Assembly: GCA_036874045.1 (NCBI GenBank)
Contig: CM072335.1
Coordinates: 5,228,001 to 5,292,000, forward strand
Reading direction: 5' to 3'
DNA: 64,000 nucleotides
DNA from: Cymodocea nodosa
Taxonomy: Eukaryota > Streptophyta > Magnoliopsida > Alismatales > Cymodoceaceae
Shown here: positions 3,808 through 58,752 of the stretch, piece by piece
How the letters are laid out: every line of letters starts with the position of its first letter
How positions within the stretch are numbered: the first letter of the stretch is position 1
Notes under the pieces: generated by a model
Database searches by the model: none
Told to the model about the DNA's origin: nothing
Seen by the model: the letters and a program-made list of their open reading frames with translations, nothing else
Translations under genes and position numbers: made by a program

Positions 3808-3810
3808 CTA

Positions 3811-9539: not shown

Positions 9540-9540
9540 C

Positions 9541-32887: not shown

Positions 32888-33864
32888 TGTTAGGATCGAT
32901 AGGCTCACTAGAAGGGGGGTGAATGGTGTAAGTGTGTAAATTTTACTTCTTTTAGAACTTAATTCGTTTATTCAATTTATCTGTGAGTTGAATTAATTGA
33001 TATGGATGCAAAACAGTAAATAGAAAGGAACACAAAAAGATTTTTAGGTGGTTCACCAACTTGGCTAGTCCACTCCCAAGATTCACTTAGGCTTCACTAA
33101 GTATATAAATACTTACAACACTTGCTTTCAGGTTGAAGTAAGAACTAACACTTGAGCTTTTAGGTTGAAGCTCAGCAACCAACCTTCTTCGAACTTTTAG
33201 GTACAAGCTCTTAACTAATAATGCATTTTAAGGTTGAAGCTCACGAACCAACAACTTTGAACTTTGACATAGAGTTTGAGCGCAAGGAGCTTTTGTGCTG
33301 TAGTGAACTTTGAGAATGTTTCTGTATTTTGTAGACTTGAGAGTATTTCTGGAATTTTAAGTAGTTCACAATATATGATGATCATTGTCTTAGTCTTCCC
33401 TTTACTTCTTATATTTATACAAAAGGTATAATGATCATATTCACTTCCAATGGATGTTTTCTGTTGTACTTATTATGTAGTTAGTCCCAAAAGTAGTAAG
33501 TTACCATTTTGTATACTATCCAACTTGTAACCTTTCGATTCCCTTTGATTTTCAGATGGTTAGCTCTATAACTCTCCGAAGAACAACCGTAACTGACCGA
33601 AAATCCACTTAAGTCCTTTTGTTTGTGTCACGTAAGAATTTAAGTCATACACGTGAAGTGTCTTAAGTTCGAATGGTTATGTCTATTAACCTATCGAAAA
33701 TCTTCAACTTTCGGATAGTTAACTACAGTAACCTCTCGATTCCTCTTTTAAGCTTCTAATTGCTATCTTCTTATTTCTACACGTGCATAATAAAGTGACT
33801 TAAGTTTTGGATAGTTAAATTTGTAACCTTTTGAAACCTCTTGTTTTTCGGATAGTTAGTGTTA
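32888..33864 (-). repeat. Copia-type LTR fragment, reverse orientation
   Basis: Starts TGTTAGGATCG and then gaaggggggtgaat, the reverse complement of a copia LTR 3' end. The right part carries the motifs cggatagtta and taacctctcg and is related to 56034-56551. It ends abruptly at the Athila-type LTR at 33865, without a canonical terminus. Confidence 0.65.
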
Positions 33865-35897
33865 TGGTGTGAAAGGTTAGATCAGAAATTTGGTTTGGGG
33901 TTGTTAACTTCTGTTTTTAAACTTGTTTAATTTGTCTTTATGCTTATATCAATAATTACTTTTAGAAGTAAATAAACAACCATTCACACAAATTAGATAT
34001 TAATTCCAATTTGTATTTAACTACAAGTGCACAGTGTATATTGTATTTGTGTGCAAGTACAGGTCGATCCCATAGAGATTGAGTAAGAATTGTGTACTGT
34101 TCTAATTTTTATATTGGAATTTATGTGTTCAGTAAGCACTCCATTGAGTTACAGTTAACACAACGAACCAAGTTCGTGGAGTTATGGCTAACTCAACGGA
34201 CTAACCTCATGGACTTAAGTTAACTCCACGAGCCTATCTTTCTAGTTAAATACTGCTATTTACAGAGGAATTTGGCCAACCATTGGGCAGTTCCATAGAT
34301 TGTAAATAACATCAATTAAGCTCTTTAATGCTAGTTATTAGTAGATTTATCATTAAGCAACACTAATATTCAGATATTTCAAATAGTAACCATTAAAATC
34401 TTTAAGTATCTAGAACGAATCAATTTTAGTAAACTGTAAAACTATTTTCTATTTTTTAAATCAAACAAACATAAAATATTCACAATATTGACAATGATAA
34501 CATTACTCACGATATAAAACAAACAATACAACACTTAAATACTAAATATAAACACAGATAAGTTGTTGTTTTTGGTATTTTTGTTTTGATATGTTCATGA
34601 AGATGAATGAAAGGTGAAATGCAAAAAAAAATCTCTATCAACAGTAAAAACTTTCATCACTATATGCGTCGTGATTACACCACTGAAAACTTAATCACTT
34701 ACAATCATGCCTCCTCTCCCTATAGAATCGCGAGTCTAGAATTGCAAGATGATCTCCTCTTCAACATACTGGCATCAACCCGAAACCAAGGCTAGAAGCT
34801 TTAGGATCTCCTGAGATATGAGTCGGTGCTTGGTGAAAATGGCTTCCCTTCCAGTGACACGATCACTCCTCACAATGGTTGTCAGACACTGTGTTTGGCT
34901 TTGAATCGACCCAACATTAGAAAAGTATCCTCACAGACCTCCGATGGTTGGTGATTATGGTGATGTTGGTGATGGTGTGGAGCTTTAGTGAACTTCCGAT
35001 GCTGCTTGCAGTTAGTGCGGTCCTCCACCTCTACATACACTACCAACCACACTTTTTTCATTTTTCTCCTCTTCTTTTATATTTCTTCAGTAGTAACTAC
35101 TTCTGCTTAGATGATCGGTTGGATTTCTTTCATTCATATCAATGATGGTGATTTCTTCTTCCTTCCACGAGTAAATTCCTACATGATACATGCAATCATG
35201 GTTTTCCTTTGAATGTCCTGTTTCTGTAACAACTACAATGGCATATTAGAAAATAAATGGTATGTGGAGTTATAGATAACTCAATAGACTTACTTCATTG
35301 ATTTAACTATAAAACACGTGCAATAAAGAAATAAGTTGCTAACATAATGTGTTACCTTAGTGTGTATTCATGTTACTCAACATATACAATTATGTTAACT
35401 TAACGAGTTAAACATGTGCATCTCACGTGATATACTAAAGCATTTAAATTCAACACGTGCATAATTCTAACTTAACAAGTTCAGATATTTCAGACACTTA
35501 TGAACCTAACTATCCGATGCCCAGATGCATATTAGATAGTTAATAGATAACTTATTGAAAATCTACTTAAGTCATGCATTAAGGTTTCAACATGTGTACT
35601 CCAGGAAATAATAAAATATTCTTCTATCGTTAAAAACATAACTATCCGGTAAATGCAATATAACTCTTCAAAATAACAGAAAATTCGAATACTTAAGAAT
35701 TTCACAGCCTGCAATTCATCGACAATTCAGAAATGTACTAAATTAACATTAATTCCTTGAAATTATGTAGATTCTTTCATTAAAGCATATAACAGTGCAA
35801 TTATAACATAATGGCTTAATTCTTATATGATAGGCTAAATATTATGCAATTAACCATCATTTAACCCTTAATATTATGCACTTTTTCATTCTAAACA
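33865..35897 (-). repeat. Athila-type 3' LTR (subfamily B) of the F-box element
   Basis: 2,033 bp read on the minus strand from TGTTTAGAATG (35897) to CACACCA (33865). The TATA box is at 35084-35091 (reverse complement) and the dyad array at 34137-34236. It is immediately preceded, on the minus strand, by a PPT. It shares its end with the partial LTR at 51109-51779. Confidence 0.88.
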
Positions 35898-35908
35898 CTT
35901 CCCCTATA
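35898..35908 (-). other. Polypurine tract, Athila-type
   Basis: TATAGGGGAAG on the minus strand, abutting the LTR start. Equivalent tracts TATGGGGGAAG occur at 55101-55111 and 58742-58752 on the plus strand. Confidence 0.85.
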
Positions 35909-37734
35909 CTTAAATTTTACTAGTCCCTTAGCAAACTAAGATCTAACTAGTTGGTCTTTCTAAAATGTTAGAATTAATTCTTCACTTCGTTTTTCTTTAG
36001 AATACATAATTTAGATTACTATATAGATATTTTGTATTTTTCAGTAATCTGTTTTAACATTGTTTTCTCCTCTTCAACCTGCAAATATATTTAAAACATA
36101 TGTAAATTACATACAAAATATATTAGCATCACATAGGTGTTAATTATATTATCATTTTTTTCTTCTTTTCAGCATCTGTCATTCTGAATTTTCCAATATG
36201 ATTTCTAGAATAAATTTCAACTACATACAAATCAAAACACAATCCAATTCAATATGATTAAAACAAGCAGAATAAATAATTGTATCTCAAATAAACAACT
36301 TCAAAAGTCTATTCTAGATTCATACTTCAGTAATCTTAAATAACAGAAAATATACTCGATTCAAAAGATATTTGTATTTCACAAAACACTTTTATCTTTT
36401 CAGAACAGTATATGCATATTTGTACTTTAAAAGTTAATTTGAAAAGCTTGAATCATACAAGAGCTTTTTAGTGTACCTATGTATTGAGCTTTCAGTCAAC
36501 AATCCCAGATCTGATTAAGATCTTAGGTTGCCAGATTTAAAGAGTCATTTTCAAGTCAACAATCCTTACATACCTATCTGCTCAAGTACAAAAGGCTCGT
36601 GATCAAACAAGTCAATATACTCTCAAAGTTTCTCTTTTTTCTTTTTTTTTTCTTTTTTTTCTTTCAACATAGTATATATACGTATTTCATTAATACAAAT
36701 GCAATAAAACACAAGTCTCATATAATCTTGCTTCTATTATTTACTGAAAATATGAATCCATATCAATAAGCTCATACTTTTTCTATAGTTTAATAAGATT
36801 TACACATAAATCATTCTACAAGTTTAATCAATGAAATTAAATGTATCCTTGATCATATGTATTTCATTTAATCCAAAAATCAACATTTCAGCTCTTCCAG
36901 GATTTCAGATAATTTATTGAGTTTCAATTAAGCATTCTGATTTCTTTTTAAAATCGTGAAACTGTTAAACTCATAAAATTCAGCAAAAATATAAGATACT
37001 ATATCTAGATTTGTATGAATAGTAATATTCTGTAGCATCTTATATAACATTTAAATAGTTACAGTTCTTAAAAATTTTACAGTTTCAATTATTGGATAGT
37101 TATAGCAAATTCATAAAAAAATTTTCAATTTCCATAGAACTTTTGCAGTACCATTCTAATTCTTCTAATTAATAAAATTACATGGCTGTTACTTTAATTA
37201 CCTCCCCCTCATACCTATATTTTGCATTATCCTTAATGTAAAAGATTTTATAGTAAATACAGTAAATGTTAGTAGGCATGAATATTGTTTCATTGATTTA
37301 GCACCTAACTCAACGAACTTAATTCGTTGAGTTAATGAATAACTCCACGAACTGAGTTTAAATGTAAATTCAGGATAAGTAATCAATTACATACCTTGTC
37401 CTTTTGTATCTCCTTCATATCTTTTGATTTTGGATTCTGAAAATTTTTCATTCACACATAAAAGTAGAATATATAATAAAGTAACAAAACATAAATTATT
37501 AAATCAGTGTCTTGTGTGGAACCCAAGCTCATATGACTTTGGTGGCTCATAAGCAAGCTAGTCGGTTTCTCAGAATAGATACCAACAAACTAGATTGATA
37601 TTTTATTTATTTTTTCTTTTTTTCTTATAAAATAAAACTAAAACTAAAACTAAAATTTTTTCTTTTCTTTTTCTCTTTTTTTTTCTAAAAATAAATGCAA
37701 AATACACACAACATTAAAAACACAGAATTATAAT
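35909..37734 (-). other. Spacer between F-box gene and PPT
   Basis: About 1.8 kb, no coding signal. Conserved in outline with 53302-55100 and partly with 57781-58741, including a block near 36480-36600, a pyrimidine-rich run near 36640, a dyad at 37300-37362 and a block near 37515-37590 just after the F-box stop. Confidence 0.7.
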
Positions 37735-38874
37735 TTAAGAACATGATTGAAAAGTAGTAACAAATGGAATAAAAGTGTCAGTCCATGCAAACTTTTTAGG
37801 CATAATTCTTCTTGCTATTAATTCTATTTTAATGCAGTCTATTTTCCTTTTTAGCTTGTAAACTTGCAGTATGTTATCAATACTAAATATAAGTGTATTA
37901 CCATTAATGAAATGAAATGCAGAAAGGGATCCTCTTCTATTCCAAGATAATGTAGTTGTTTCTATTTCTACATCTATTTCAATATATTCCTCTTCCCACT
38001 TCCATTCATTTAGGTCTTTCATAATCCATATTTGAAATTTCCTAAATTCATCCCACCATCTTATTAGACATAAAGTAGGATCATCATATTCATTATACCA
38101 CATTCCTAATTGAATTTTATCATATTCTGCAGATGGTGGTTTAGCTATATCACTCGGTATAGGTAATATTTCTATAAAATCATTATCATAACTATCTATG
38201 CTTACTATGTATAAATCAGATCTAAATGCAACTGATATATCTGTGACTAGATATATATATCCATCAAGTATGACATGCATGCTGTTAATTAATGTTTTCT
38301 GTCCTAAATATATCATAGTATTTTCTGTCCAAGATCTATTCAGAAAATTATACACACTTAAGCATAAATCTTCATCCCAATTTCTAGTTGGTCTCTAGTA
38401 ATATAATTTTTCAGGAATGATTGAATTTTTATTAGAAAATATTAAAGCTAACCCACAATTTTCCGTTGGTACTTGAAATCTTTTAGGCCTTCCTATATTC
38501 CATTCTTCTCTTGTAATAGGATTTCTAATCAAAATGTCAGGTAACAGAATTGCATACCTTGGTTTGGTTCTGTATATAATTAATCCTTCATCCATCCCCA
38601 TAATATAATCTATTCCTTCTAATGTATTGGGTGGAATTCCATCAGTTTCTTTCATATTCAGATATTTATAGTAGATTGAACTACGATTAAATGACTTCCA
38701 TAAAAATCCATTTCTAATCTTAGTCATTTTTGCAGCTTGTAGTCCATGAAAATATTTTTCTTTGACACAATCTTTGATTTCCTTTGATACACAACACAAT
38801 CTGCATAGATCTTTAGCTGACAAACTACTTAGTACTTCCCTTAGTGCATCTAGTGGTAATTTCATCAATTCCAT
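37735..38874 (-). pseudogene. F-box protein gene carried by an Athila-type element, copy 1
   Basis: 380 codons with one interruption, TAG at 38395-38397 where copy 2 has Trp. The first 45 residues are an F-box: MELMKLPLDALREVL, SAKDLCRLCCVSKEI. Residues about 100-150 contain GLIIYRTKP and ILIRNPITREEWN, like the start of an F-box-associated domain (compare NPxTRE). The rest (SVYNFLNRSW, ILDGYIY, SDLYIVSIDSYD, PTLCLIRWWDE) resembles the FBA beta-sheet region. F-box proteins normally bind SKP1 and select substrates for SCF ubiquitin ligases. The gene follows gag by 217 bp and precedes the spacer, PPT and LTR. Copy 2 (52130) has the same layout. ATG at 38874 was chosen because both copies share it; an upstream tatacag acceptor is possible. 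Confidence 0.85.
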
Positions 38875-39091
38875 CTGTTGTGATTCTGTATAACATAAAC
38901 AAAAATTTAACAAAGACAAAATTAACATAGCTACTTTACACACCCTTGTGGAGTTAGGTCATAACTCAACATACTAAGTTCGTTGAGTTAAGTAATAACT
39001 CTACGATATTACTAACTATAATTAAACTTAAATTTTTTATTTTTATTTTTTTATTTACTATATTATACATAGTTACTTTAGTTCTACTACT
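38875..39091 (-). promoter_or_regulatory. gag-to-F-box gap with TATA-like box and dyad
   Basis: Contains TATAATATA at 39059-39067 and a dyad segment at 38941-39006 (cgttgagtta and taactcaacg variants). Plus-strand copy: TATAATATA at 51929-51937 and dyads at 51993-52055. May provide a separate F-box transcript; a possible intron acceptor lies just before the ATG. Confidence 0.45.
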
Positions 39092-40284
39092 TCATTTAGG
39101 TTCCCTCCCATAGGAGGTATCAATTTCATTAACAGTTCTGTTGACAGGGTTAGGTACTACTTGCAATGGCAATCTTCTTGTAGGTCTAACTTCTATTGAT
39201 TCCTTCTGTCTAGGGGGTATATTTCTATTTATATTTTGATTTTGAATTGTAGCATTTCCAAATACAAGATCTAGACGATTGTTTAATTGTTGGATTATCT
39301 TTTCTAATTTCTCTATTCTAGATCCTTGTTCAATTAAAGCTTCATAACTTATATTTTTGTCATTTATATTTTCTCCTCCTTGGAAATTGTTGTTTCTCCA
39401 AGATAGATTTGGGTGATTTCTCTAATTAGGGTCATAAGAATTTTCAAAGTTATCTTTCTAGTTTCTAGCATAAATAACATCTAAATCATTAACATGTGCA
39501 TTCTTTTTTGCTAGCTTTTGATTTAATGATAACTCTTCTATTTTCTTTGTTAATTCAGTTAATTTAACTTCAAGCATAGTGCTTGAATTTATTTCATGCA
39601 TTCCCCTTGGCAATATTCTTTTATCTATAATAGCTTCAGCCGAGTTTTCCCACTATACAGTTCTTTTTGCAAAGTTTTCTAAATATGTCCATGCTTCTTC
39701 ACTACACAGTTTTAAAAATCCATTATGACAAGTAGATTCTAATAAAGATTTTGTTGAAACATCTATGCCTTCATAAATTATACCTATTAATTGTGCTTTA
39801 CTCATAGCATGATGTGGACATTGAGTTAGTAAATCTTTAAATCTTTCAAAATATTTCTAGAATGATTCTCCTTGTTTTTGGCTACACATTAATATTTCCT
39901 TTTTCTTTTTAATCGTTTGATGTGTTGGATAATATTTTTCCAGAAAAATAGAGTAAAATTTAGTCCATGTAGAAATTGAATTAGGCGATAGAGTATATAA
40001 CCATCTCTTAGTTGTGTCTTTTAAAGCAAAAGAGATATATCTAAGTTTAATAGCATCTATACTCATGTTCGGCATTTTCATCATTTGACAAACTTCGTTA
40101 AATTCTTTAAGGAAATAATAGGCATCATCTCTTTCTAATCTATGAAAATGTGGTAATTGACTAATATAATTAAATTTCAATTCAAACCTACCTCCCTCAA
40201 AGTTGGCAATCGAATACATGAAGGTTCATCAACTAATTCAAGATACAGAATTTCCCCTAGTAGTTTTTCTACTAGAGCAGCCAT
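39092..40284 (-). pseudogene. Athila-type gag (Retrotrans_gag domain), next to the F-box gene
   Basis: Capsid gene. The core FELKFNYISQL, FLKEFNEVCQMM, DAIKLRYISFALKDTTKRWLY, SISTWTKFYSIFLEKYYP and FKDLLTQCPHHAM is the Retrotrans_gag region of Athila/Tat elements. Further on the Athila linker SYDPN.RNHPNLSWRNN is visible, then a helical region and an end at 39092 (TGA). No zinc knuckle is found, and protease/pol does not follow; the F-box gene does. Internal stops and a likely frameshift near 40230. The start at 40284 (MAALVEK) is tentative. Confidence 0.8.
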
Positions 40285-41425
40285 ATCCTCATTCTCTTTT
40301 AAAGAAAGGTTAGCTATACCCCTAAGGATTTCGTTAAAGTCCAATTCAAAAAAATTTCAGTATGTCTCTATGTTGAGTAATCATGTGTAGGTGTTCTTAC
40401 TAATCGTTTAGTGCTAGGAGAATGAATCCATGTGTTCATAAACTCTTAACATAAAGTAAAATAGCAGAAGATTAATTACATACTAGCCTGAAGCTTTATA
40501 TTCAGTAAATAGTTGTTGACGAATGAAGTTGAATCAGCTACTTCTCCTTCTAGTTCCCCAACGAATTTCCTTTTCTTCCAAAAGTGTTGGTAACTAGTAA
40601 ATAACATTCTATTCTATATTTATAATGCACGTCTATAAAGCAAATGAATCTCGTTGCAAGAACGTGTCTTGTAACGTGTAGTGTGGTTCCTATTTTTATA
40701 GGTACTTGTTCCACTTCTAATTTCAAATTTTAGTAACCGCTAAACCTACGAAGTTTTATTCGTGGCTAAAAGAATAACTGTTTAGCTTAATCCATGAACT
40801 AACCTCGTTGAGTTACAGTTAACTCAATGGACTAGCTTCGGTTACTGTTGCTAACTCCACGGACTAACTTCGTTGAATTACAGATAACTCAATGGAGTGA
40901 CTTTATATTATATTATTGACCTCGTGGAGTTAAGGTTAACTCAACAAACTTACTTCATTGAGTTAACACTTAGCAAATTTCTAAAACTTACTCTTCGTAT
41001 TAACTTCTATATTTTTTCTCTCTCCTACATTTTGTCAACTTAAATAAAGTTAAATACATGTCATTACTGTAGTGTTTTAATTAAAACTCATTTAAATCTG
41101 ATCATGATATGTATATTTAACTTGTTGTTCATTTCATGTTATGTAGAATTTACATTTTACTTTGCAGCATGCAGATATTTTCAAGCATTAACCAGTTATC
41201 TTGCATTTAATCCTATCATTTATAAAATTTATAAATCTTTTAAACAATCTTGCACCTTGTTCAAACAGTTATATAATATTCAAGATAGTTCATCCATTAC
41301 ATCATTCTCAAATACTAATGCAAAAACATTTGAAAAACATACATTCATTTATATGAATAATTTACATTACAATCAATCAGATATTTTTCATATAAATATA
41401 AGTATAAGTACACGAACAATACAAT
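40285..41425 (-). promoter_or_regulatory. Region upstream of the Athila-type gag
   Basis: No ORF. On the minus strand it contains a dyad array (40975-40790), then TATAAAAATA at 40691-40700, about 400 bp upstream of the gag ATG. No LTR or primer site was found here, so the true 5' end of the gag/F-box unit is unresolved. The part nearest 41425 may be the 3' flank of ORF-X. Confidence 0.4.
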
Positions 41426-43675
41426 TTAATCTTTTATCTTAAGTTCATCTAATTCCTTCTGGAGTTTTTCTAATTGTTGCTCTACTTGGTTTATCCTTCC
41501 TACAGCTCTTGTAATGCCTCTAGAAGGTTCAGCAATCTCAGCAACAGTATAATTGTAGTTTCTGTATTCCTTCACTGAAATGGCTCTTGATTTTATCCTT
41601 TTAGATGTCCATTTTGTGAAGTCAATATAGTCCACCATTAGTAGTGGCATCAAATCTCCATAAAATAGTTTCTTCTTTACTATTCTCAACTTGGAGATAA
41701 AAAATGCAGACCAATTAATTTGAATTCTGTTCACAACTGCATATGTGGCCCACTTGACAAATTGACTCAGTTCTATATCATGGCCTTGTTGTTGATAGAC
41801 ATTCTTAATCAAAATGTTAGGTATCATGTGTGCTTTACCTTTTAAGTGCTTCAATCTATTTAATAATAGCACACCAGGATTGATAGCTAAACAATCCTTT
41901 ATTATTTGTTCTGTCCACTTGACTATAGTTGTGCTTTCCAGAATTTCTATTCCTTCATTCTTCAGTCCTAAAATGTTGTGGAGAAGCTCTAGTGTTATCT
42001 GTACATCAGCTTGCTCTACGTTGGAAATTAATCCACTTTCTCCTTCTCTTAAATTTGCATAGAAGCCGGACACTAGATTCTCATATATTGCATGCCCTCT
42101 CTATTGAGAAATAAATTGCAGTAGACCTTGGAACTCAAATAAATCCTTGATTTTTTGCATCCTGTCCCAATTTACTAGTCTATTGTATATGATATTATAA
42201 CCCCTAATCTCTTGATATTTATTATATGCTTCCTGACTCCAAAAGTGTACTTCATTCAAAACTATTGCTTTAATCGGGTTAGGAATTTGAATTTGTTGCT
42301 CTAGAGGGGTTTGTTCTTGAACTTCCTCTTCCATGTGCTAAACTTGAATTAACTGAAAATTCTTTGGAGATTCCTGCATTTTTGCTTCTACTTCTATTTG
42401 TGGTGGTGAGCTGGCAGAACTCTCCACTCTGCTCTCTTAAATTCTTGCCAAAATTTGCTGACGAGTTTCTTACTCTTCAGTGGAATCTATCGAGTCATTT
42501 CTTTCTTGTTCCATATATACTTGTTCAGTTTCTTCTTTTTCCTCTTCCTCCTCACTACCAATCTGCATTGTCACTATTCTTTCTGATTCTATGGCAGATT
42601 GGGATGGAGTTACGGGCAAATCAGCTTCTGCCTTAATTTCTGTTTGTTCTATTTGTACAGGTTGCAGATTAGTTTCAGCCTGTTTTTCTTCTTCTCTTTG
42701 CTCTTGCTGCTGTTGCTCCTACTCCTCCTTAGAATCGAATAGCAGGTTTACAAAAATTTGCTCTATAGGCCCTATTGATATTTGCATCTTAGATTTAATC
42801 TCTTCTTGATGTTTAGGCACTATCTCTTTTCCTTTCGTTCTTTTGATTAATTGTGTCTGGTTTTCCTCTTCTTCTTTTGAGATTAAATCTACAAAAATAG
42901 GCTTTGTAGGCCTTTGAGCCATAGGTACTAGCTCTTCCTATTTAACTTTTTCTATAATTGCTAGTCTCGAAGGACCAGCTTTAGCTCCTCTTGCAGTAGG
43001 TCTGGTAGTGGCTCCTTGATGCTGTTCAACTTTAATTTTGTATTGGGCTTTCAACTTTTCTGCAACATTCTTTTTGCACCGTGCATCAAACACTAGATGT
43101 GCTATAGCTACTACCAACTCTTCTAGTTCTCCTTGCTCTTTTCCAATTTGAACCAGCTCTTGAAATTCTCTTAATTCTTCCTTAGTAGAAGGCCCCAAAA
43201 TTGTTGCTCTTTCTAACGGCCTTGGTGATGGAACTAAAGGTCCGGGCTGCTATTCCTCAAGGGCATGTCTTTCAACAGTCAGTTTCTCTTGTTCTTTAGT
43301 TGTCTGTTCTTTAGTTCCTTTCCTTTGTTGCTCCCAAATTACCCACTGAGCCCGTCTACCTATGCGTGTTTTGAACTAGAGTCAGGACTTACGTTGGATC
43401 AATTCTAGGGCGACTTCGTTATTTGGCGTGATTCATCTTTTTTTGTTTACAACTTCCGTTGCTACTTTGATTCTCGTTTCCATAATCTAAGGTATTTTTA
43501 TGCCTAAATCCACTAACACTTTCCTCTAGTAAAACATGTCAGATTCTACCTTTTGTAGCTCTTTTTCCCTTGTCGTATTTCTGATCTTTTGCCTTGTATG
43601 CCATTCTTCCAAATCTTTAAGAAATTCTAACGTGTCAACAACGTCCTCCTAGAATTTTGGTGTCATCTTTCTCAT
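41426..43675 (-). pseudogene. Athila-type ORF-X, most complete copy
   Basis: One frame of 750 codons from ATG at 43675 to TAA at 41426, with no frameshift and about ten internal stops. The TAG at 43526-43528 (codon 50) is shared with the plus-strand copy; most others are not. Order: charged N-terminus (REKELQKVES), Glu/Gln-rich linker, Lys/Glu-rich region and a long Gln/Glu stretch. Then the conserved domain (42260-41560): DLFEFQGLL, FYANLREG, LISN, LELLHNILGLKNEG, WATYAVVNRI, KLFYGD. A short C-terminal coiled coil follows (VEQQLEKLQKELDELK). The domain matches that of the C2 envelope-position ORF. It lies after pol, the env position of Athila elements. No signal peptide or clear membrane segment. 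Function unknown. Confidence 0.75.
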
Positions 43676-44358
43676 CGTGGAGTTACAAAATGGAACAGAA
43701 TCGCTCTGATCTCTATTGTTCTAAGTTCTAAATGATTCTGTGGATAATGCCCCCAAACCCTAAGTTTAGTATAAATAAGCCTTAAGTTTAAGCAGGAAAT
43801 CGAGTCATTTCCCATACAAAACTCTCGCTCTCTCATTTACCTCTTCGTGGAATTATAGTTAACTCCACAGACTTAATCCATGGACTTAACTACAGTACTC
43901 CGTTGAGTTATAGTTAACTCAACGGGGTGAGTTCATTAACTTATCCTAGACTCAATGGAGTAAGTTCGTTAAGTTAAGTGTAACTCAATGGACTTTTCGT
44001 AAAGTTATATCTAATAAAAATACTTATAATAATAATTTTTACTTCGGTCAAGACCAAAGAATTTTTGGTCTAATCGACTCTTAATTTTTCAACATTTTAA
44101 AATTTTGGTCAAATCGTTATATTCCTCGGTTGAACCGAAAATATTTTCTTTCTTTCTTTTTTTTCTGTTGGTTAAACTGATACTATACTTCAATAACACC
44201 AACACTATACTAAATATAATATATAGATTTTTTATGTTTTTATGTTTCGGTTAGACCGATGGATCTTGTCGGTTGAACCACAATGATTTTTTTATTATTA
44301 TATACTTAGAAAATTTCTTACTAAGTAAAGCTCGAGTAGCCCTCTACTATTACTTCTT
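43676..44358 (-). promoter_or_regulatory. Athila-type pol to ORF-X spacer with internal promoter
   Basis: On the minus strand: CGGTT/AACCG-type repeats (44290-44040), a GTTGAGTTA-type dyad array (43995-43850), TATTTATA at 43777-43770, an AAACCCTAA telo-box at 43755-43763 (plus-strand reading) and a short leader to the ATG at 43675. Same order as 20751-21404. Confidence 0.6.
43770..43777 (-). promoter_or_regulatory. TATA box of ORF-X, minus-strand copy
   Basis: TATTTATA about 95 bp upstream of the ORF-X ATG, followed by a telo-box. Conserved in sequence and spacing with 21303-21310. Confidence 0.55.
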
Positions 44359-45618
44359 CTATAATTCTAAAAAACTTTTTGATATCTTCAAAATAGATCT
44401 AAGTCTTTGTCCATTTACTTTAAATATATTCTGATTTTTAGGATTTTCAATTTCAATAACTTCATAGGAATAAATATTTCGAACTATGAAAGGTTCTGCC
44501 CATCTAGATCTTAATTTTCTTGGATGGTAATGGAGTCTAGTCATGTAAAGATAAACTTCTTATCCTATTTCAAAGGTTTTTGGAATAATTTTCTTGTCAT
44601 GCCAGAACTTCATTTTTTCTTTTTCTCTTATAGTTTTCGAACAAGCTTCATTCCTAAATTCTTCTAATTCAATCAATTGTATTTTTCTGTTTTGAGCAGC
44701 TTGATTTAAATTAGTGTTCAGTGTTTTTAATGTCTAATAAGCTTTATGTTCAATTTCAACTAGTAAATGACAACTTTTTCCATATACTAGCCTAAAAGGT
44801 GACATACCTAAGCTTGTCTTATAAGCAGTTCTATAAGTCCAAAGTGCATCTATCAATCTATTAGCCCAATTTGTTCTAGTAAGATTTACTACTTTTTCTA
44901 AGATTAACTTAATTTGTTTGTTTGCACTTTCTACTTGTCCACTTGTTTGCGGATGATATGATGTTGCAATTTTGTGATTTACTCCATATTTCTTCATTAA
45001 GGCTTCAAAACTTCTATTACAGAAATGAGTTCCTCTATCATTGATAATAGCTTTAGGTATTCCAAATCTAGTAATTATATTATTTCTTATAAAATGAATT
45101 ACCACTTTATTGTCATTAGTTTTTGTAGGAATAGCTTCTATCCATTTAGATACATAATCTACCCCCAACAATATATAATTAAATTGATTAGACATAAGAA
45201 ATGGACCCATAAAATCTATTCTCCACACATCAAAGATTTCAACCTCAACAATAGTATTAAGAGGTATCATATTTCTCTTTGATATTCTTTCTATTTGTTG
45301 ACATTTTAAATAACTTAAGAAATATTTATGAGCATCTTTGAATAGTGTTGGCCAATAAAATTCATATTGCAGAATTTTGGCAATAGATTTCCCTGAACCA
45401 AAATACCCTCCACATGCTTGGTCATGGTAGAAAGACAATATACTCTGATATTCAGTTTCTAGAACACGCCTCCTTAAAACCAGATCAGGACATTTTTTAA
45501 ATAAGTATGAGTCTTCCCAATAGTAATATTTTACTCTTGAAAAGAATAATTTCTCATCTTGTCTATTCCAATCCTTAGCTGTTAAACTAGTAACTAAGTA
45601 ATTAACTATGTCTACATA
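44359..45618 (-). pseudogene. Athila-type pol: integrase and C-terminal tail
   Basis: Integrase of a Ty3/gypsy element. The zinc region keeps its first His ([10 protein letters not shown]) but has only one Cys of the CxxC pair ([10 protein letters not shown]), a visible defect. The catalytic core is present: Asp in [10 protein letters not shown], Asp in [11 protein letters not shown], Glu in [11 protein letters not shown] (about 45270-44880). The C-terminal tail KLRSRWAEPFIV...FKVNGQRL ends with TAG at 44359. It is in the same frame as RNase H upstream. Motifs and tail place it in the Athila/Tat group. Confidence 0.9.
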
Positions 45619-46447
45619 CTAAGGCATTGTGTCGATGATCATTAATTGTTCATCAGGAAAATTATCCTTAATTTCAATATTTGACTTTTTTATTTGTAAT
45701 CTTGATAAATGATCTGCTACTACATTCTCACAACCTTTTTTATCTTTAATTTCTAGATCAAATTCTTGTAATAATAATATCCACCAGATCAATCTAGGTT
45801 TAGTCTCTTTCTTTGCTATTAGGTGTTTTAAAGCGGAATAATCCATGTATACTATCACTTTAGCTCCAATCAGATATGATCTAAACTTTTCTAAGGCAAA
45901 CACAACAACTAAGAACTCTTTTTCAATAGTTGTGTAATTAACTTGAGCATCATTTAAGGTTTTGCTTGCATAATGAATCAGTTTAGGAGATTTTTCTATC
46001 TTTTGTCCCAACACTGCTCCTACAGTAAAATCAGATGCATCACACATTAATTCAAATGGATGGCTCCAATCAGGTGCTTGAATTATAGGAGTTGAAATTA
46101 AGTTAGTTTTAAGCTTGAAAAATGCTTCTTTGCAATTTTTATCGAAGTTGAATGGGACATCTTTTAATAGATTAGTTAAAGGTCTAGCTATTTTGCTAAA
46201 GTCTTTAATAAATCTTCTATAAAATCCAGCATGTCTTAGAAATGATCTAATATCTTTTACTGATTTAGGTTCTGGTAGATTAGAAATTACTTCTATTTTA
46301 GCTTTATCTACTTCCAACCCTTTCTTTGAAACAACATGTCCCAAGACTAATCCTTGTTTAACCATGAAGTGACATTTTTCCCAATTTAGAACCAGATTTT
46401 TTTCCACACAGTGTTTTAATACTTGGTCTAAATTGTTTAAACACACT
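45619..46447 (-). pseudogene. Athila-type pol: RT C-terminus and RNase H
   Basis: Open for 275 codons. RT thumb/connection: [48 protein letters not shown]. RNase [39 protein letters not shown], then VADHLSRL. It joins the RT half at 48460 across the solo LTR. When the LTR and one target duplication are discounted the frame is continuous. Confidence 0.92.
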
Positions 46448-47376
46448 TGTTTAGAATGAAAAAGTGCATATTATTAACGGTTAAATGATGGTTAATTGCA
46501 TAATATTTAGCTTATCATATGAGAATTAAGCCATTATGTTATAATTGCACTGTTATGTGCTTTAATTGAAGAATCTGCTTAATTTTGGGGAATTAATGTT
46601 AATTTAGTACATTTATGAACTGTCGGTAAGTTGCAGGCTATGAAATTCTTAAGTATCTGAATTTTCTGATATTTCGGACAGTTATGTTTAACATACCGAA
46701 TATGTATCAGATAGTTATGTTTAAATTGCCGAACAGTTATGTTTAGAGAGAATATTTTATTATTTCCAGATGTACACGTGTCGAAACCAGAATGAATGTC
46801 TTAAGTGAATTTTCGGTGAGTTAGCTGTAACTATCCTAAAATGCATCTGAGCATCGGATAGTTATACTTGTAACTCTCTGAAATGTTATTTTATGTTTAA
46901 ACTGTTGCTGACACGTGTCGAGATCTGGTAGATTTACTTAAGTTATAACTCGTTAAGTTAGCATAACTGTACGCGTTGAGTTACATGAATATACACTAAG
47001 GTAACGCGATATGTTAGTGGCTTATTTCTTTATTGCATGTATTTTATGCACGTGTTGAATTCAAATGCTTTAGAATATCACGTGAGATGCACATGTTTAA
47101 CTCGTTAAGTTAGTATAACTGCACGTGTTGAGTTACATGAATATACACTAAGGTAGCGTGTTAGGTTAGCGGCTTATTTCTTTATTGCATGTATTTTATA
47201 GTTATTTTCTAAAATGCCACTATAGCGGTTGCAAGAACAGACAGTTGGAAGGAAAAACCACGTTTGCACGTATCACACAGGAATTCAATTGCACATGGAG
47301 AAGCAAGCATCGCTGTTGATCGGAAGGAAGGAAATCCAACCGATCATTCAAGCAGAAGTAGTTACTACTGAAGAAA

Positions 47377-47384
47377 TATAAAAG
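47377..47384 (+). promoter_or_regulatory. TATA box of the solo Athila-type LTR
   Basis: TATAAAAG, conserved at 959-966, 14826-14833 (reverse), 35084-35091 (reverse) and 59750-59757. It marks the U3/R boundary region. Confidence 0.65.
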
Positions 47385-48094
47385 AAAAGAAGAAAAAAAG
47401 AAGAAAGTGTGATCGATGGACGGCCAGTGTATACAGAGGAGGAGCACCGAGCTTTCTGCAGACAGTATCGGCGATTCTCCAAAGTATCACACCAACCATC
47501 GTTATCACCACCATAATCACCAATCATCAGAGGTCTGTGAGGATACTTGCCTGATGTTGGGTCAATTTTGAGCCAAACACAGTGCCTGACAACCACTGTG
47601 AGGAGTGATCGCGTCGCGGGAAGGGAAAACATTTTCACCAAGCGCCGACTCATATTTCAGGAGATCATAAAGCTTTTAGCCTTGACTTCGGGTTGATGCT
47701 TGTATATTGAAGAGGAGATCATTTTGCAATTCTGGACTCGCGATTCTATAGGGAGAGGAGACAGAATTGTAAGTGGTTTAATTTTTAGTGGTGTAATCGC
47801 GTTGCAAGTAGTGTCGGAAGTATTTACTATCAAGTGAGATTACTTTACATTTCACCTTTCGCCTATTTCCATGTTCACATCAAAACAAAAATACCAAAAA
47901 CAATTTATCTTTGTTTGTATGTTGTATTTGAGTGTTGTATTGTGATTAATGTTATCTGTATCAGTTTTATGATTGTTTTATGTTAGTTTTAATTTTACAA
48001 TTTACTGAAATTGGTTCGTACAAAAAACTTAAAGATTTTAATAGTGACTGTTTGAATCATCTGAATGTTAGTAGTATTATAAAGAAGAGACAGG

Positions 48095-48187
48095 CTCGTG
48101 GAGTTAACTTAAGTCCACGAGGATAGTCCGTTGAGTTAGCCATAACTCAACGAACTTAGTCCGTTGAGTTAACTGTAACTCAACGGA
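48095..48187 (+). repeat. Triple perfect hairpin array in LTR
   Basis: Three successive inverted repeats: CTCGTGGA (48095) with TCCACGAG (48114); CGTTGAGTTA (48129) with TAACTCAACG (48143); TCCGTTGAGTTA (48160) with TAACTCAACGGA (48176). Loops are 4 to 11 bases. Homologous arrays occur in the other Athila-type LTRs. Confidence 0.9.
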
Positions 48188-48459
48188 GTGCTTATAGAAT
48201 ATAAATTTGAATTGTTCACAATTAAACATTTCTTAAATTCGTCAACAATTCCCTATGGAATCGACTTGTACTTGCACACTCATACAATAGACACTATGTA
48301 CTTGCAGTTAAAGTACAAATTGAAATTAATATCTAAATTGTATTAACGGTTGTTTGTTTACTTCTAAAAGAAAGAATAGGCATAAAGATAAATTAACTAA
48401 GTAAAAATAGAAGTAATAAATCCAAATTTTTCTAGTGTAGTGCTGGGAAAACCCGAACA

Positions 48460-49089
48460 ACACTTCATATGAAGTTCCATAAACAGTAAAATCATCCATA
48501 AATATTTCTAAAAAATCTTTAGTCATCCTAGTGAATATGCCCTACATACACCTTTGAAAGGTGGTTGGTGCATTGCATAATCTAAATGGCATTCTCTTAA
48601 AAGCATAAGTTCCATTAGGACAAGTGAAAGTTGTTTTCTCTTGATCCTCTAATGCTACTGAGACTTGGTTATATCTTGAATACCCATCTAGGAAATAAAA
48701 ATATTTTTGCCTTGCTAATTTTTCTAGCATTTGATTTATAAAAGGTAAGGGAAAATGATCTTTCCTAGTCACAACATTCAGCTTTCTATAATCTATACAC
48801 ACTCTCCAGCCTGATTGAATTCTAGTAGATATCAAGTCCTGACTTTCATTTCTAATAACTGTTAATCCTAATTTCTTGGGAACGGAACTACATGGATTGG
48901 ACTAACCCATGAGCTATCAAAAATAAGATAAATTATGTCATTATCTAACCATTTCACTATTTCCTTCCTAACTACTTCTTTAAGGTTTGGATTTAATCTC
49001 CTCTCAGGAATTCTAATAGGTTTAGCATTTTCTTCTAAGTATATGTGGTGACAGCATAAAGTTGCACTTAACCCTTTTATATCAGTCAT
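48460..49089 (-). pseudogene. Athila-type pol: RT N-terminal half
   Basis: RT fingers and palm: NPNLKEVVRKEIVKWLDNDI, a segment ending VSPIHVVP, a frameshift near 48860, then GWRVCIDYRKLN, TRKDHFPLPFINQMLEKLA, QEKTTFTCPNGTYAFKRMPF and NAPTTFQRCM. The catalytic FMDDF lies near 48490-48504. In RMPF-RLCNAP the usual Gly is replaced by Arg. Apart from one frameshift it is close to Athila consensus. Confidence 0.92.
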
Positions 49090-49479
49090 AGTCTAGCCTA
49101 TTGCTTCTTTATAAGTTTTTACTACATCTTTTAATTTAGCAATTTGATCCTCTTTTAAATCTGAAGTAATAATGATTGGACATGTTCGTTTTTCTTCCAA
49201 AAATATATATGTTAATTCAAGAGGTAAATGTTTTAATTCTAAATGTTGCCCATCAGAAGCTAGAGCTCCTAATTGAACATCATCATTTTCTAAATTAATT
49301 TCTTCCTGATCTCCTTTTATATTTATGCTTTCACTTTCTTCTAAAGTTTCAAAATTTAGTTGCCTATTTAATTCTTCTTGAATCACATCATCTAGCATAT
49401 CTCCTTTATCCTCTAAAAAGTCTATAGTATGTAAAGACATTTCTAACTCCTCAAACTTTCCTGGTTTGAAAATGTTTAA
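49090..49479 (-). pseudogene. Athila-type pol: protease to RT linker
   Basis: Acidic linker with LKHLPLELTYIFLEEKRTCPIIITSDL, the usual Athila segment before RT. In frame with the protease. Confidence 0.75.
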
Positions 49480-49990
49480 TTAAGTATCCTCATTACCATA
49501 TGCTAACTTCATTACTCCAGTTTTACAATTAATAATAGCCCTTGATGTTGCTAAAAATGGTCTTCCCAAAATTAAAGATGTATAACTATCTTTATGCTTA
49601 ATTTGTTGGGAATCCAAATTTACAATATCAATAGGATATATGAAGTTTTTGATTTTAATTAAGACATCCTCTATATTTCCTCTAAGGTATCTTATACTTC
49701 TGTCAGTTAATTGAATAACAGTTCTAGTAGGAATTAAGCCTTCTAATCCGAAGGATGCAAATATATCACTTGGCATAACATTTATACTTGCACCTAGGTC
49801 TATTAAGGTTCTTTTTAGAATGGTATCTCCTATGGTGCATGATATAACAAGAATTCCAGGATCAAATAACTTTTTAGGAATTTGAGGTAGAAATAGGGAA
49901 TTACTTTGCTCAGCTAAAAAGAATTTCCTTAAAACTTTTCACTCTCTTTTCTTAGTACACCAATTCTTAAGAAATTTAGCACAAGGTGGC
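49480..49990 (-). pseudogene. Athila-type pol: aspartic protease
   Basis: Upstream block FFLAEQSNSLFLPQIPKKL, then the active-site segment TLIDLGASINVMP with DLGAS at 49786-49800, followed by LGRPFLATSRAIINCKTG. It processes Gag-Pol. In the same frame as the flanking linker regions. Confidence 0.85.
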
Positions 49991-50994: not shown

Positions 50995-51077
50995 ATTCTC
51001 AATTATAGAAGAAAACACACAAAACTCCTCTTGCTATTAGAACAAAATAGCACTCATAGTTGCTTAGCTTCTCAATG

Positions 51078-51093
51078 CCCGACAACGGCGCCA
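51078..51093 (-). other. Primer binding site, tRNA-Asp type (copy 1)
   Basis: TGGCGCCGTTGTCGGG on the minus strand; one mismatch to the complement of the tRNA-Asp 3' end (TGGCGCCGTTGCCGGG), the usual Athila primer site. Confidence 0.85.
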
Positions 51094-51108
51094 GAAAACT
51101 TGTATTGA

Positions 51109-51779
51109 TGTGAAAGGTTAGATCAGACAACTAGTCCCCGACAACGGCGCCAGAAAACTTGTCTATTGGGTTCGTTAACTTCTATTTTTACTTGTTTAAT
51201 TTGTCTTTAGGCTTATATCAATAATTACTTTTAGAAGTAAACTAACAACCTTTCACACAAATTAGATATTAATTCCAATTTATATTTTAACTACAAGTGC
51301 ACAGTGTATATTGTATTTGTGTGCAAGTATAGGTCGATCCCATAGAGATTAAGTAAGAATTGTGTACTGTTCCGATTTTAATAATGTAATTTATGTGTTC
51401 AGTAAGCACTCTGTTGAGTTATAGTTAACACAACGGACTAAGTTCATGGAGTTATGGCTAACTCAATGAACTAACCTTATGGACTTAAGTTAACTTCACA
51501 AGTCTATCTTTCCAGTTAAATACTACTATTTACAGAGGAATTCGACCAACCATTGGGTAGTTTCACAGATTGTAAATAACATCAATTAAGCTCTTTAATG
51601 CTAGTTAATATTAGATTTATCATTAAGCAACACTAATATTCAGATATTTCAAATAGTAACCATTAAAATTTTTAAGTATCTGGAACAAATCACTTTCAGT
51701 AAACTATAAAACTATTTTCTATTTTCTAAATCAAACAAACATAAAACATTTACAATACTGACAAAGATAACATTACTCA
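51109..51779 (-). repeat. Athila-type 5' LTR (subfamily B), partial
   Basis: The LTR end nearest the primer site, matching 33865-34520. The distal part is missing: at 51779/51780 it is joined to plus-strand gag sequence. Dyads at 51407-51505. Confidence 0.82.
51137..51152 (-). other. Primer binding site, duplicated copy
   Basis: Same 16 bases as 51078-51093, 59 bp away, within a direct repeat of about 26 bp (gacaacggcgccagaaaact core). It lies inside what should be the LTR end. Confidence 0.7.
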
Positions 51780-51903: not shown

Positions 51904-52129
51904 AGTAGCACAATTATTAGCAACTATGTATAATATAGTAAGTAGAAAAATATAAAAAGAAAAAAATGAAAGTTTAATTATAGTTTGTAATACCATAGAG
52001 TTATTACTTAACTCAATGAACTTAGTTCGTTGAGTTATGACCTAACTCCATGGAGGTATGTAAGTAGCTATGTTAATTTTATCTCTGTTTAAATTTTGTT
52101 TATGTTGTTAAAATACAGAATTACAACAG
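51904..52129 (+). promoter_or_regulatory. gag-to-F-box gap, plus-strand copy
   Basis: TATAATATA at 51929-51937, dyads at 51993-52055 (ttcgttgagtta and taactcaatg) and a possible splice acceptor aatacag near 52118. Counterpart of 38875-39091. Confidence 0.45.
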
Positions 52130-53301
52130 ATGGAATTGATGGGATTACCATTAGATGCACTAAGGGAAGTATTAAGTAACTTATCAGCTAAAGATCTATG
52201 TAGATTGTGTTGTGTGTCAAGACAAATTAAAGAATATGTTAGAGAAAAATATTTTCATCGACTACAAGCTGCAAAGATGACTAATATTAGAGATGAATTT
52301 TTATGGAAGTCATTTAATCATAGTTCAATAAGTTATGAATATCTGAACATAGAAGAAACTACTAGAATTCCACCTAATACATTAGAAGGAATAGATCATA
52401 TTATGGGGATAGATGAAGGTTTGATTATTTACAAAACCAAACCAATGTTTGCTATTCTGTTACCTGATATTTTGATTAGAAATCCTATTACTAGAGAAGA
52501 AAGGAATATAAGAAGGCCTAATAGATTTGAAGTACCAACTGAAAATTGTGGGTCAACTTTAACATTTTCTGATAAAAATTTGACCATTCCTAAAAAATTG
52601 TATTACTGGAGACCAACTAGAAATTGGGATGAAGATCTATGTTTAAGTGTATATAATTTTTTGAATAGATCTTGGAATGAAAATATTATAATATATTTAG
52701 GAGAGAAAGCATTAGTTAACAATATACATGTCATACTTGATGGATATATCAATTGCATTTAGATCTGATTTATACATAGTGAGCATAGACAGTTATGATG
52801 ATGAATTTATAGAAATATTACTTATACCTAATGATATAGTTGAACCACCATCTACAGAACATGATAAAATTCAATTAGGAGTGTGGTATAATGAACATGA
52901 TGATCCTACTTTATGTCTTGTAAGATGGTGGGATGAACTGATGAATATGGAAGTGGCTAAGACCTAAATATTTCTGAATATTTGATGAATATTAAAAATT
53001 TCAAATATGGATTAAGAAAGACCTAAATGAATGGAAGTGGAAAAATGAATATATTGAAATATATGTAGAAATAGAAGCAACTAAATTATCTTGAAACAAA
53101 AAAGGAACCATTTCTGCATTTCAATTCGTTAATGATAATACACTTGTATTTAGTGTTGATAACATACTACAAGTTTACAAGTTAAAAAGGGAAGTAGACT
53201 GCATTAAAACAGAATTAATAGCAAGAAGAATTATGCCTAAAGGTTTTTCTTGGACTAACATGTTTATTCCATTTGTCACTACTTTTCAATCATGTTCTTA
53301 A
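52130..53301 (+). pseudogene. F-box protein gene carried by an Athila-type element, copy 2
   Basis: Same protein as copy 1; by eye about four residues in five match. F-box at codons 1-45 (LPLDALREVLSNLSAKDLCRLCCVSRQI), the ILIRNPITREE block, and YYWRPTRNWDEDL intact where copy 1 has a stop. A deletion of about 14 bases near 52752 shifts the frame. A rearranged segment near 52940-53000 (duplicated gaatat-type sequence) breaks it again. The C-terminus (VDNILQVYKLKRE, IARRIMPK) reaches the same end, stop at 53299-53301. Its damage differs from copy 1, so the two decayed independently. Confidence 0.85.
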
Positions 53302-55100
53302 ATTGTGATTTTGTATTTTTAATGTTGTGTGTATTCTGCATTTATTTTTAGAAAAAAAAAAAGTAAAAAGTAAACTTTTAGTTTATGTTTTATTTATCTT
53401 ACAAGAAAAATGAAAAATATAATATCAATTTAGTTTGTTGGTATCTATTCTGAGAAACCAATTGAATTGCTTGTGAGCCACCAAAGGTATAGGAGCTTGG
53501 GTTCTACACAAGGCACTAATTTAACAATTTATGTTTTGTTGTTAGTTGTTATTTTGTTATATATTTTGCTTTTACTTGTGAATGAAAAGTTTTTCAAGCA
53601 TAATTCATAGAGTTATTTATTAACTCAACAAATTAAGTTCATTGAGTTAGGTGCTAAGTCAATGAAACATTATTCATGCTTACTAACATTTACTATAAAT
53701 CTTTTACATTGAGGACAATGCAAAATGTAGGTAAGGGGGGGAGGCAATTAGATTAAAATCCAAGTAATCTTGTTAAGTAGAGTAATTAGGATTGTGCTAC
53801 AAAATTCTATGGAAATTGAAAATCTTTTATGAATTTTGCTGTAACTTTTTGAAATTTCCTATAATTATCTAAAATCTTTCGATAGCTGAAATTGAAATTT
53901 TTTTTTTTTGAGAACTATAACTACCTGAATGTTATATTTAGAATCTTATATAAGATGCTACAAAATTTTAATATTAAGACAAATTTAGATATAGTATTTT
54001 ATGTTTTTACTGAATTTTGAGTTTAACAATTTTAAAAAGAAATTAGAATGCTTAACTGAAACTCAAGAAATTATCTGAAATCCTAAAAGAGCTGAGATGT
54101 TGATTTTTGGATTAAATGAAATGCATATGATTAAGGATACATTTAATTTGATTGATTAAACTTGTAGAATGATTTATGTGTAAATCTTATTAAACTATAG
54201 AAAAAGTATGAGCTTATTGATATGGATTCATAATTTTCAGTAGATTGTAGAAGTAGGATTATATGAGATTTGTGTTTTATTGCATTTGTATTAATGAAAT
54301 ACATATATATACTATGTTGAAAATAAAAAAGAGAGAAAAACTTTGAGAGTTTATTGATTTGTTTGATCACAAGCCTTTTATACTTGAGCAGATAGGTATA
54401 TACGAATTCTTGACTTGAAAAATGACTCTTTAAATCTAGCAACCTAAGATCCTAATTAGATTTGGGATTGCTGACTAAAAGCTCGATACATGGGTACACT
54501 AGAAAGCTCTTATATAATTCAAGCTTTTCAAGTTAACTTTTAAAGTAAAAATATACATATATTGTTCTGAAAAGGTAAAAGTGTTTTGTGAAGATACAAA
54601 TATCTTTTGAATCGAGTATATTCTCTGTTATTTATGATTACTGAAGTATGAATCTAGAATTAGACTTTTAAAGTTGTTTATCTTGAGATATAATTCATTA
54701 TTCTTCTTCTTTTAATCATATTGAGTTGAATTGTGTTTTGATTTGTATGCAGTTGAAATTTATTCTAGAAATCATATTGGAAAATTCAGGATAACAGATG
54801 TTTGAAAGAAAAAATTGATAATATAACTACCACCTATGTGATGCTAGTATATTTTATATGTAATTTACATATGTTTGAAATATATTTGCAGGTTGGAGAG
54901 GAAAAACTATGTTAAATTAGATTACTGAATTATATAGAATATCTTTATATTAATCTAATTTTAGTATTCTAAATATACAAAATGAAGAAATATTTTTCAT
55001 AAGGAATACTGATGTATGAAGGAAAGAATTAGTTTTAGCACTTTAGAAAGACCTGTTAACTAGATCATATGAGTTTGCTAAGGGACTAGCAAAAGCTAAG
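53302..55100 (+). other. Spacer between F-box copy 2 and PPT
   Basis: Counterpart of 35909-37734, with no coding signal. A dyad lies at 53605-53660, just upstream of a gtaaggggggg run near 53730. The last part, with cttgagcagataggtat and the agggactagca block, is conserved in all three element copies. Confidence 0.7.
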
Positions 55101-55111
55101 TATGGGGGAAG
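55101..55111 (+). other. Polypurine tract
   Basis: TATGGGGGAAG, directly before TGTTTAGAATG. Confidence 0.88.
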
Positions 55112-56033
55112 TGTTTAGAATGAAAAAGCACATAATATTAACGGTTAAATAATAGTTAATTGCATAATATTTAGCTTATCATATGAGAATTAAGCCATTA
55201 TGTTATAATTGCACTATTATATGCCTTAATGAAAGAATCTACATAATTTCAGAGAATTAGTGTTAATTAAGTATATTTTTGAACTGTCGATGAGTTATAG
55301 GCTTTCTAATTCCTATGTATTCGAAATGTCTATTATTTTAGAGAGTTACATTTCATGTACTGGATAGTTATGTTTTGAACACTTAAAGAATATTTTATTA
55401 TTTCATGAAGGACACGTGTTGTAACCTTAATACATGACTTAAGTGGATTTTCCATAAGTTAGATGATAACTATCTGAAATGTGTCTAAGTATCAGATAGT
55501 TAGGGTTACAAGTATCTGAAATACCTTTTTATCATAAGAATTACTAAGAACACATGTCGCGATCTGGAAACTTGACTTAAGTTATCTTTCAGAAAGTTAA
55601 ATGCTAACTATTCGAAATACATATAAGCATCAGATACTTATAGTTTTTAATTATTTGAAATATCTTTTTATTAGTAAGTTAGAATTATGCACATGTTGAA
55701 TTTAAATACTTTATTATGTCACGTGAGCTATACATGTTTAACTCGTTAGGTTAGCATAACTATACGCATTGAGTTACATTAACTCCATGGATCAGTTATT
55801 TTCTAACACGCCACTATAGTAGTTGTAGAAATAAGAAATTCAAAGGAAAACTATGATTGCACGTATCATGTAGGAATTAACTCATAGAATGAAGAAAGAA
55901 CCATCATTGATACGAATGAAGGAAATCCAATTGATCATTTAGGTAGAAGTAGTTACTACTGAAAGAAATATAAAAGAAAAGGAGAAAGATGAAGAGTGTG
56001 TGTGTGAAGGTGGAGGACCACGCTAACTATAGG
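55112..56033 (+). repeat. Athila-type 3' LTR, left half
   Basis: Begins TGTTTAGAATG and contains the U3 modules with CACGTG at 55413 and a CACATG variant about 138 bp later. TATAAAAG near 55968. Cut at 56033 by a copia-type LTR start. Confidence 0.82.
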
Positions 56034-58741: not shown

Positions 58742-58752
58742 TATGGGGGAAG
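58742..58752 (+). other. Polypurine tract
   Basis: TATGGGGGAAG next to the LTR start at 58753. Confidence 0.88.

Follow-up and report, generated by a model that had tools for sequence, protein, structure and literature searches.

In Cymodocea nodosa, decayed retrotransposons of an Athila-like Ty3/gypsy family appear to carry, in the place of the env-like ORF, an intronless gene of the F-box/FBA type 1 kind in sense orientation. We put the probability of this reading at roughly 55%. It concerns the window, that is, the whole stretch of 64,000 nucleotides that was analysed, which is AT-rich (GC 0.307) and crowded with retroelements.

Two Copies of a Gag/F-box Unit

The unit occurs twice, each time in the order gag, F-box gene, spacer, PPT and LTR. 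A preliminary description of this DNA had claimed two such copies, with a spacer of about 1.8 kb, and the alignment confirms it. The gap from the end of gag to the F-box ATG is 217 bp in copy 1 and 226 bp in copy 2, and the copies can be aligned from the gag end into the LTR, with two BLAST blocks of 83% (pieces shorter than 150 bp were left out of the self-comparison of the window). The junction of PPT and LTR start lies at 35898/35897 in copy 1 and at 55111/55112 in copy 2, and both LTRs begin TGTTTAG. Beyond about 35623, the two LTRs are only ~67% alike in the alignment. The parts of the two copies and their nearest relatives in the window are as follows.

33860–35897, minus strand: 3′ LTR of copy 1 (LTR A), about 2.04 kb long and bounded by TG...CA; 3′ end as read from the sequence
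35898–37734, minus strand: spacer and PPT of copy 1, between F-box gene and LTR; PPT at about 35910–35898
37735–38874, minus strand: F-box gene of copy 1; 380 codons including the stop, no intron, ATG at 38874, TAG at codon 160
39092–40219, minus strand: gag of copy 1 (Athila-like capsid core, PF03732) with four in-frame TAG codons
51790–51903, plus strand: gag end of copy 2, last 114 bp only; C-terminal peptide resembles that of copy 1
52130–53301, plus strand: F-box gene of copy 2; ATG at 52130, 20-bp deletion, 52-bp insertion, one TGA
53302–55111, plus strand: spacer and PPT of copy 2, ~1.8 kb as in copy 1
55112–56028, plus strand: 3′ LTR of copy 2 (LTR C), of which the first ~0.9 kb is left before a cut at about 56028
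57848–60936, plus strand: third family member with part of the same spacer, PPT and LTR D; truncated short of where an F-box gene would lie
46448–48459, plus strand: solo LTR E, likewise of this family and inserted in RT; flanked by the 5-bp target duplication ACACT at 46443–46447 and 48460–48464

Because the gag end, spacer, PPT and LTR are common to two copies, the F-box gene is a component of the family and not a bystander, as had been proposed. Since the third element has the same spacer and LTR, the frame in which the gene sits belongs to the family as well, and the target duplication carried by solo LTR E shows that the LTRs of the family are mobile. The preliminary description had also named an opposing case, a host F-box gene with introns inside one segmental duplication. 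It is not seen. The gene is a single exon, and the gag end, spacer and LTR common to both copies rule out an intron-bearing host gene duplicated beside an element. A local protein search (E up to 1e-3) found no third F-box copy in the window.

The assignment of the gag to the Athila type stands for copy 1, where PF03732 matches with E = 3.9e-8 at 40219–39857 and the next piece, at 1.1e-4, is under the cut-off. What the description had not conveyed is the state of the gene. The frame of copy 1 ends in a TGA at 39094–39092, and its likely start is an ATG at 40284, so that besides the four TAG codons there is a frame-shifted head, reaching to about 40220 in another frame; copy 2 keeps only the fragment listed above. 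No exact CX2CX4HX4C knuckle occurs in the gag beside the F-box gene, and a search with a 120-residue capsid-core piece found no second capsid core in the window. Neither a 5′ LTR nor a primer site was found directly before gag in either copy. The stretch 41425–40285 was tried as the 5′ LTR of the gag/F-box unit and rejected. Its alignment to LTR A scores 111, the highest of 30 shuffles being 81, and the clear likeness sits in repeat motif arrays; the gag-ward stretch scores 41 against a best shuffle of 58, and the far stretch at 84 equals its best shuffle of 84.

These arrays belong to a palindromic motif around CGTTGAGTTA that occurs, with at most one mismatch, at 92 places in the window versus 0–5 in 10 first-order random sequences (for example at 34142–34221, 37306–37340, 38962–38996, 40806–40956 and 43901–43981). 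Clusters lie in the LTRs, before gag, on both flanks of the F-box gene, and between pol and the 3′ ORF. Those flanking the F-box gene form direct repeats of ~56 bp, identical at 45/56 positions in copy 1 and 47/59 in copy 2, and fold as hairpins with z values of −1.35, −3.97, −4.86 and −3.03.

The window has other repeated residents. Two copia-type stretches at 2123–6003 and 7866–11741 form a tandem pair, 86% alike, with RVT_2 at E = 1.6e-74 in the second. A unit of ~700 bp is present on opposite strands at 16523–17213 and 60997–61701 (84% alike). It holds an open frame of 199 aa at 16638–17234, which matches no Pfam family above cut-off, and lies near the 39% relative of the 3′ ORF listed below. 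An Rfam scan of the window gave nothing at the gathering score.

The F-box Gene

Both copies encode the same protein of about 380 residues, as had been described: the frame of 380 codons, stop included, is uninterrupted by introns in either copy, and the copies are 88.7% identical where aligned. The F-box itself is secure. Pfam F-box PF00646 matches N-terminally with E = 5.8e-10 in the read-through of copy 1 and 7.6e-11 in the first ORF of copy 2, with bit scores of 40.8, 39.1 and 41.9 against a cut-off of 20.5. The FBA-like blocks reported along with it fall under the cut-offs: TIGR01640 (F-box-associated type 1) covers residues 113–334 with E = 3.5e-9 and 36.3 bits, just below its threshold of 37.9, and Pfam FBA_1 reaches E = 0.0072 and 16.7 bits, below 21.1. 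A chance ORF is ruled out by the F-box and TIGR01640 scores. The predicted structure of the protein, with a mean pLDDT of 38.4, is too poor for use.

The damage differs between the copies, and here the earlier account was correct but incomplete. It had given one nonsense codon for one copy and a deletion plus a rearrangement for the other. In copy 2 the alignment shows the 20-bp deletion, the 52-bp insertion, which is edged by a TAA codon, and a TGG-to-TGA codon that the earlier account had missed.

Among 2413 candidates, no relative of the protein appeared at E ≤ 0.001, and for an alignment of the two copies 7995 candidates were scored with no match at E ≤ 10. Because hits depend on common words of 5 residues, a remotely related host parent may have escaped. 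No viral contig matched any of six peptide patterns, and no PDB chain matched the read-through protein at E ≤ 1. Two PDB matches to the alignment (E 0.82 and 0.86, RNA-dependent RNA polymerase 2) are read as chance.

Probable Past Coding Constraint on the F-box Frame

The comparison of the two sequences gives mixed evidence, from which we conclude with moderate confidence that the F-box frame was probably under coding constraint for part of its history and that this constraint has since been lost in both copies. The gene has 2 indels in 1120 aligned bp versus 21 in 1706 bp of spacer (Fisher p = 0.002); there are 4 in the 217 aligned bp just 5′ of the gene. Speaking against constraint, the 415 bp compared at the LTR start have 0. 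Between the two copies, dN/dS is 0.49 (bootstrap 0.33–0.70), calculated from 368 of 372 codon pairs with exclusion of codons with gaps or stops. When the same changes are placed randomly, the mean is 0.78, and 31 of 2000 simulations give a value of 0.49 or lower. The other two frames look like the null, with 629 and 1819 of 2000 simulations reaching the observed value. Stop-changing codons number 3 where 7.2 are expected, which is marginal (three or fewer in 114 of 2000 simulations). Also against constraint, differences by codon position are 47, 32 and 47, the third position not exceeding the first.

Divergence taken by itself carries no such message. The F-box gene differs at 127 of 1120 positions (11.3%) and the whole spacer at 207 of 1706, and the least diverged stretch between the copies is the mid-spacer at 36828–36084, with 8.0% divergence, 7 indels in 727 bp and no sense frame longer than 38 codons in copy 1. 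Because the mid-spacer is less diverged than the F-box gene, low divergence is not a mark of coding here, and we rejected an argument for constraint built on it alone. The mid-spacer is perhaps a cis signal. Open antisense stretches, 80 codons long in copy 1 and 102 codons long in copy 2, overlap within it; they are not counted as a gene, since the third element has no frame longer than 49 codons there and the differences by codon position are even (8, 7 and 6 in 225 aligned bp).

The same numbers have to be weighed against the possibility that a captured host F-box gene travelled as passive cargo, a filler of no use to the element. The gene has diverged about as much as the whole spacer, the dN/dS signal is weak, and the available text of PMC7264820 describes plant LTR elements that took up host genes. 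Mere filler does not readily account for a frame with fewer indels than the spacer and fewer stops than most simulations, nor for its being still almost complete in copy 1, and largely complete in copy 2, across a K2P distance of 0.13. We regard passive cargo as a real possibility, though we would bet against it.

Divergence Between the Copies

K2P distances between copies 1 and 2 are 0.132 for the F-box gene and gag end, 0.134 for the spacer and 0.172 for the LTR start. Those between copy 1 and the third element are 0.148 for the spacer and 0.184 for the LTR start. Branch lengths in the spacer are 0.042 for copy 1, 0.092 for copy 2 and 0.106 for the third element. Copy 1 thus has the shortest branch of the three and one stop in its F-box gene, and copy 2 has a longer branch and more damage.

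These distances bear on whether the copies stem from two transposition events or from an inverted segmental duplication of one insertion. The copies are mutually inverted with about 13 kb between them, and rearrangement has truncated copy 2 at either end, all of which a duplication would accommodate. A late duplication is disfavoured because copies 1 and 2 diverged at about the same depth as copy 1 and the third element, in the spacer as in the LTR start. The homology moreover ends inside the element, in gag on one side and in the LTR on the other, and no shared host flank is seen. We therefore consider a segmental duplication improbable and keep to two members of one mobile family.

Copy 2 lies head-on to the cut LTR of the pol-bearing unit described below, with junctions at 51780 and 56028. 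The LTR parts missing at these two points suggest an inversion, which would have had its breakpoints within LTR and gag.

The Pol-Bearing Unit Upstream of Copy 1

The preliminary description stated that neither protease nor pol lies between gag and the F-box gene. This is true, but it overlooked PR, RT, RNase H and IN directly upstream of the gag of copy 1 on the same strand.

41426–42073, minus strand: ORF lying where Athila elements have their 3′ (env-like) ORF, with integrase on one side and the gag/F-box unit on the other; 39% relative at 18357–18872
44734–49776, minus strand: PR, RT, RNase H and IN frames, interrupted by solo LTR E (46448–48459)
51076–51152, minus strand: doubled 18-nt primer binding site (PBS), exact at 51135–51152 and with 1 mismatch at 51076–51093
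51161–51779, minus strand: terminal ~0.62 kb of LTR B, with which the pol unit opens; 3′ end approximate

The pol unit matches RVT_1 at 6.2e-13, RT_RNaseH at 1.2e-31 and rve at 4.3e-14; the protease region has a weak Pfam match only (Peptidase_A3, 0.02). On the minus strand these domains follow one another as RT, RNase H and IN, which is the Ty3/gypsy order. The RT/RNase H frame is matched by all 7996 candidates scored, with 54–72% identity to plant retroelements among the best 120 of the 7996, and the best named ones come from Tanacetum and Prunus; plant retroelements are thus present in the protein set in which the F-box protein had no relative. Two ORFs lie on the integrase-to-gag side, 42073–41426 and 43198–42938. 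They may resemble the Athila 3′ ORF; neither has a Transposase_32 or ATHILA match at E up to 1, and for 42073–41426 no Pfam family scores above cut-off.

The primer binding site word at 51135–51152 presumably fits tRNA-Asp. A tRNA-Asp primer site is also stated for Diaspora and Calypso in the available text of PMC1142308. The two copies of the site are 59 bp apart, and the frame that follows them starts shortly before a zinc knuckle, with no capsid core found in it. This knuckle, at 50946 in the pol unit, is the only exact CX2CX4HX4C in the six frames of the window, and the only capsid core found in the window is that of the F-box unit at 39092–40219. With the knuckle on one unit and the core on the other, a two-part split of gag is possible.

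The same arrangement allows everything from LTR B to LTR A to be read as one large element, in the order LTR B, PBS, zinc knuckle, PR, RT, RNase H, IN, 3′ ORF, gag core, F-box gene, PPT and LTR A. All parts are on one strand, with the PBS at one end and the PPT at the other. From the 3′ ORF to gag, nothing like an LTR turned up apart from the short motif arrays. A knuckle without a core marks the start of the pol unit, and the gag beside the F-box gene has a core without an exact knuckle. LTRs A and B, at 92.2%, are more alike than any other pairing of the three minus-strand LTRs compared. LTR identities do not settle the matter, however, because other pairs are nearly as close or closer: LTR A is nearly as similar (90.6%) to the plus-strand LTR at 1–567, and the pairs F–E and D–F stand at 94.8% and 92.3%. 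A single deletion between neighbouring elements on the same strand would yield the same picture, and since the PBS is doubled, the head of the pol unit must have been rearranged. A gag core behind pol is also unlike the Athila elements described in the available portions of PMC2410132 and PMC1142308. One large element is accordingly unlikely in our judgement. We prefer a deletion that fused two elements of the same strand, of which one was a pol-less gag/F-box element, because pol-less Athila elements with gag and one further ORF are known from PMC2410132 and those portions describe none whose gag core follows pol.

Proposed Mechanism and Its Meaning

If the gag/F-box unit is such an element, the F-box gene likely multiplied by reverse transcription together with the rest of the element, using the pol of relatives that have one, among which the unit directly upstream would count. 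The F-box protein would likely be made from a spliced or otherwise downstream-started mRNA. In both copies, an acceptor-like U-rich tract ending in ACAG or CAACAG lies just before the F-box ATG, and a spliced mRNA on which translation starts at the F-box gene is plausible from such signals. In copy 2 there is also a strong splice-donor-like GAG/GTATGTAAGT about 70 bp before the ATG, in the stretch 52056–52129; the donor is weaker in copy 1.

By analogy with the domains concerned, SKP1 would be bound by the F-box, and a host protein by the FBA part. Some plant viruses use an F-box protein, such as polerovirus P0. It is doubtful, though conceivable, that an SCF ligase formed in this way acted on a host factor to the gain of the element, as a counter-defence. 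That the target would be a silencing or restriction factor is a guess. A fuller scheme would have the F-box gene kept as an accessory gene in the env place that turns the host SCF on such a factor, within a two-part system of capsid core and F-box gene on one side and pol and zinc knuckle on the other, the modules being exchanged at the palindromic repeats; we hold that whole to be quite improbable.

Were the F-box gene indeed a kept accessory gene, plant retroelements would act on the host directly via ubiquitin ligases, and a protein would have been named whose target could be found. It would also follow that screens for extra domains anchored on RT, such as the one presented in the main text of PMC9289625, are blind to the genes of RT-less units.

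Comparison with Known Systems

No LTR element with an F-box accessory gene appeared in the openly licensed literature, in titles and abstract starts among the matches listed. The term F-box is likewise absent from the main text of PMC7264820, PMC9289625, PMC2410132, PMC11728184, PMC12844716 and PMC3726574. An LTR-gene of the F-box family, later duplicated in tandem, is reported for Thlaspi in the part of PMC8764390 available, and from that part it seems to be another matter.

Several described systems share single features with the unit. As in plant FBA type 1 F-box proteins, an N-terminal F-box is followed by a TIGR01640 match (here under the cut-off); unlike them, this protein is encoded inside a retroelement and has no relative at E ≤ 10 among the 7995 candidates scored. 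Plant LTR elements that have captured host genes, such as Bs1 of maize, are covered by the available text of PMC7264820. Bs1 and the other transducing LTR elements resemble our unit in having a host-type gene inside, in sense with gag; they differ in that their genes are others, and here the gene is present in two family members about 0.13 apart in K2P. Plant Gypsy elements with extra domains (AlkB, PMD, G-patch, B3 and ArgoL2) are described in the main text of PMC9289625. They too keep an extra host-type domain within a Gypsy family, but that text has no F-box among them, and its RT-anchored screen would let RT-less units escape. TR-GAG elements, as presented in the accessible part of PMC11728184, are LTR elements showing gag domains alone, as this one does, whereas here a gene is added and a same-strand pol adjoins.

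The closest likeness is to the pol-less Athila elements of Arabidopsis, which according to the portion of PMC2410132 available have gag and env as their two ORFs and show purifying selection on these frames. In common with them, the unit has an Athila-type gag, no pol within it and one ORF between gag and the 3′ LTR, and it would likewise have depended on the pol of relatives. It differs from what that portion describes in that the ORF is of F-box/FBA type rather than env-like, and in that its own 5′ LTR was not found. The kind of unit is thus already known; what is new here is an Athila-type gag-plus-ORF unit whose ORF is an F-box gene.
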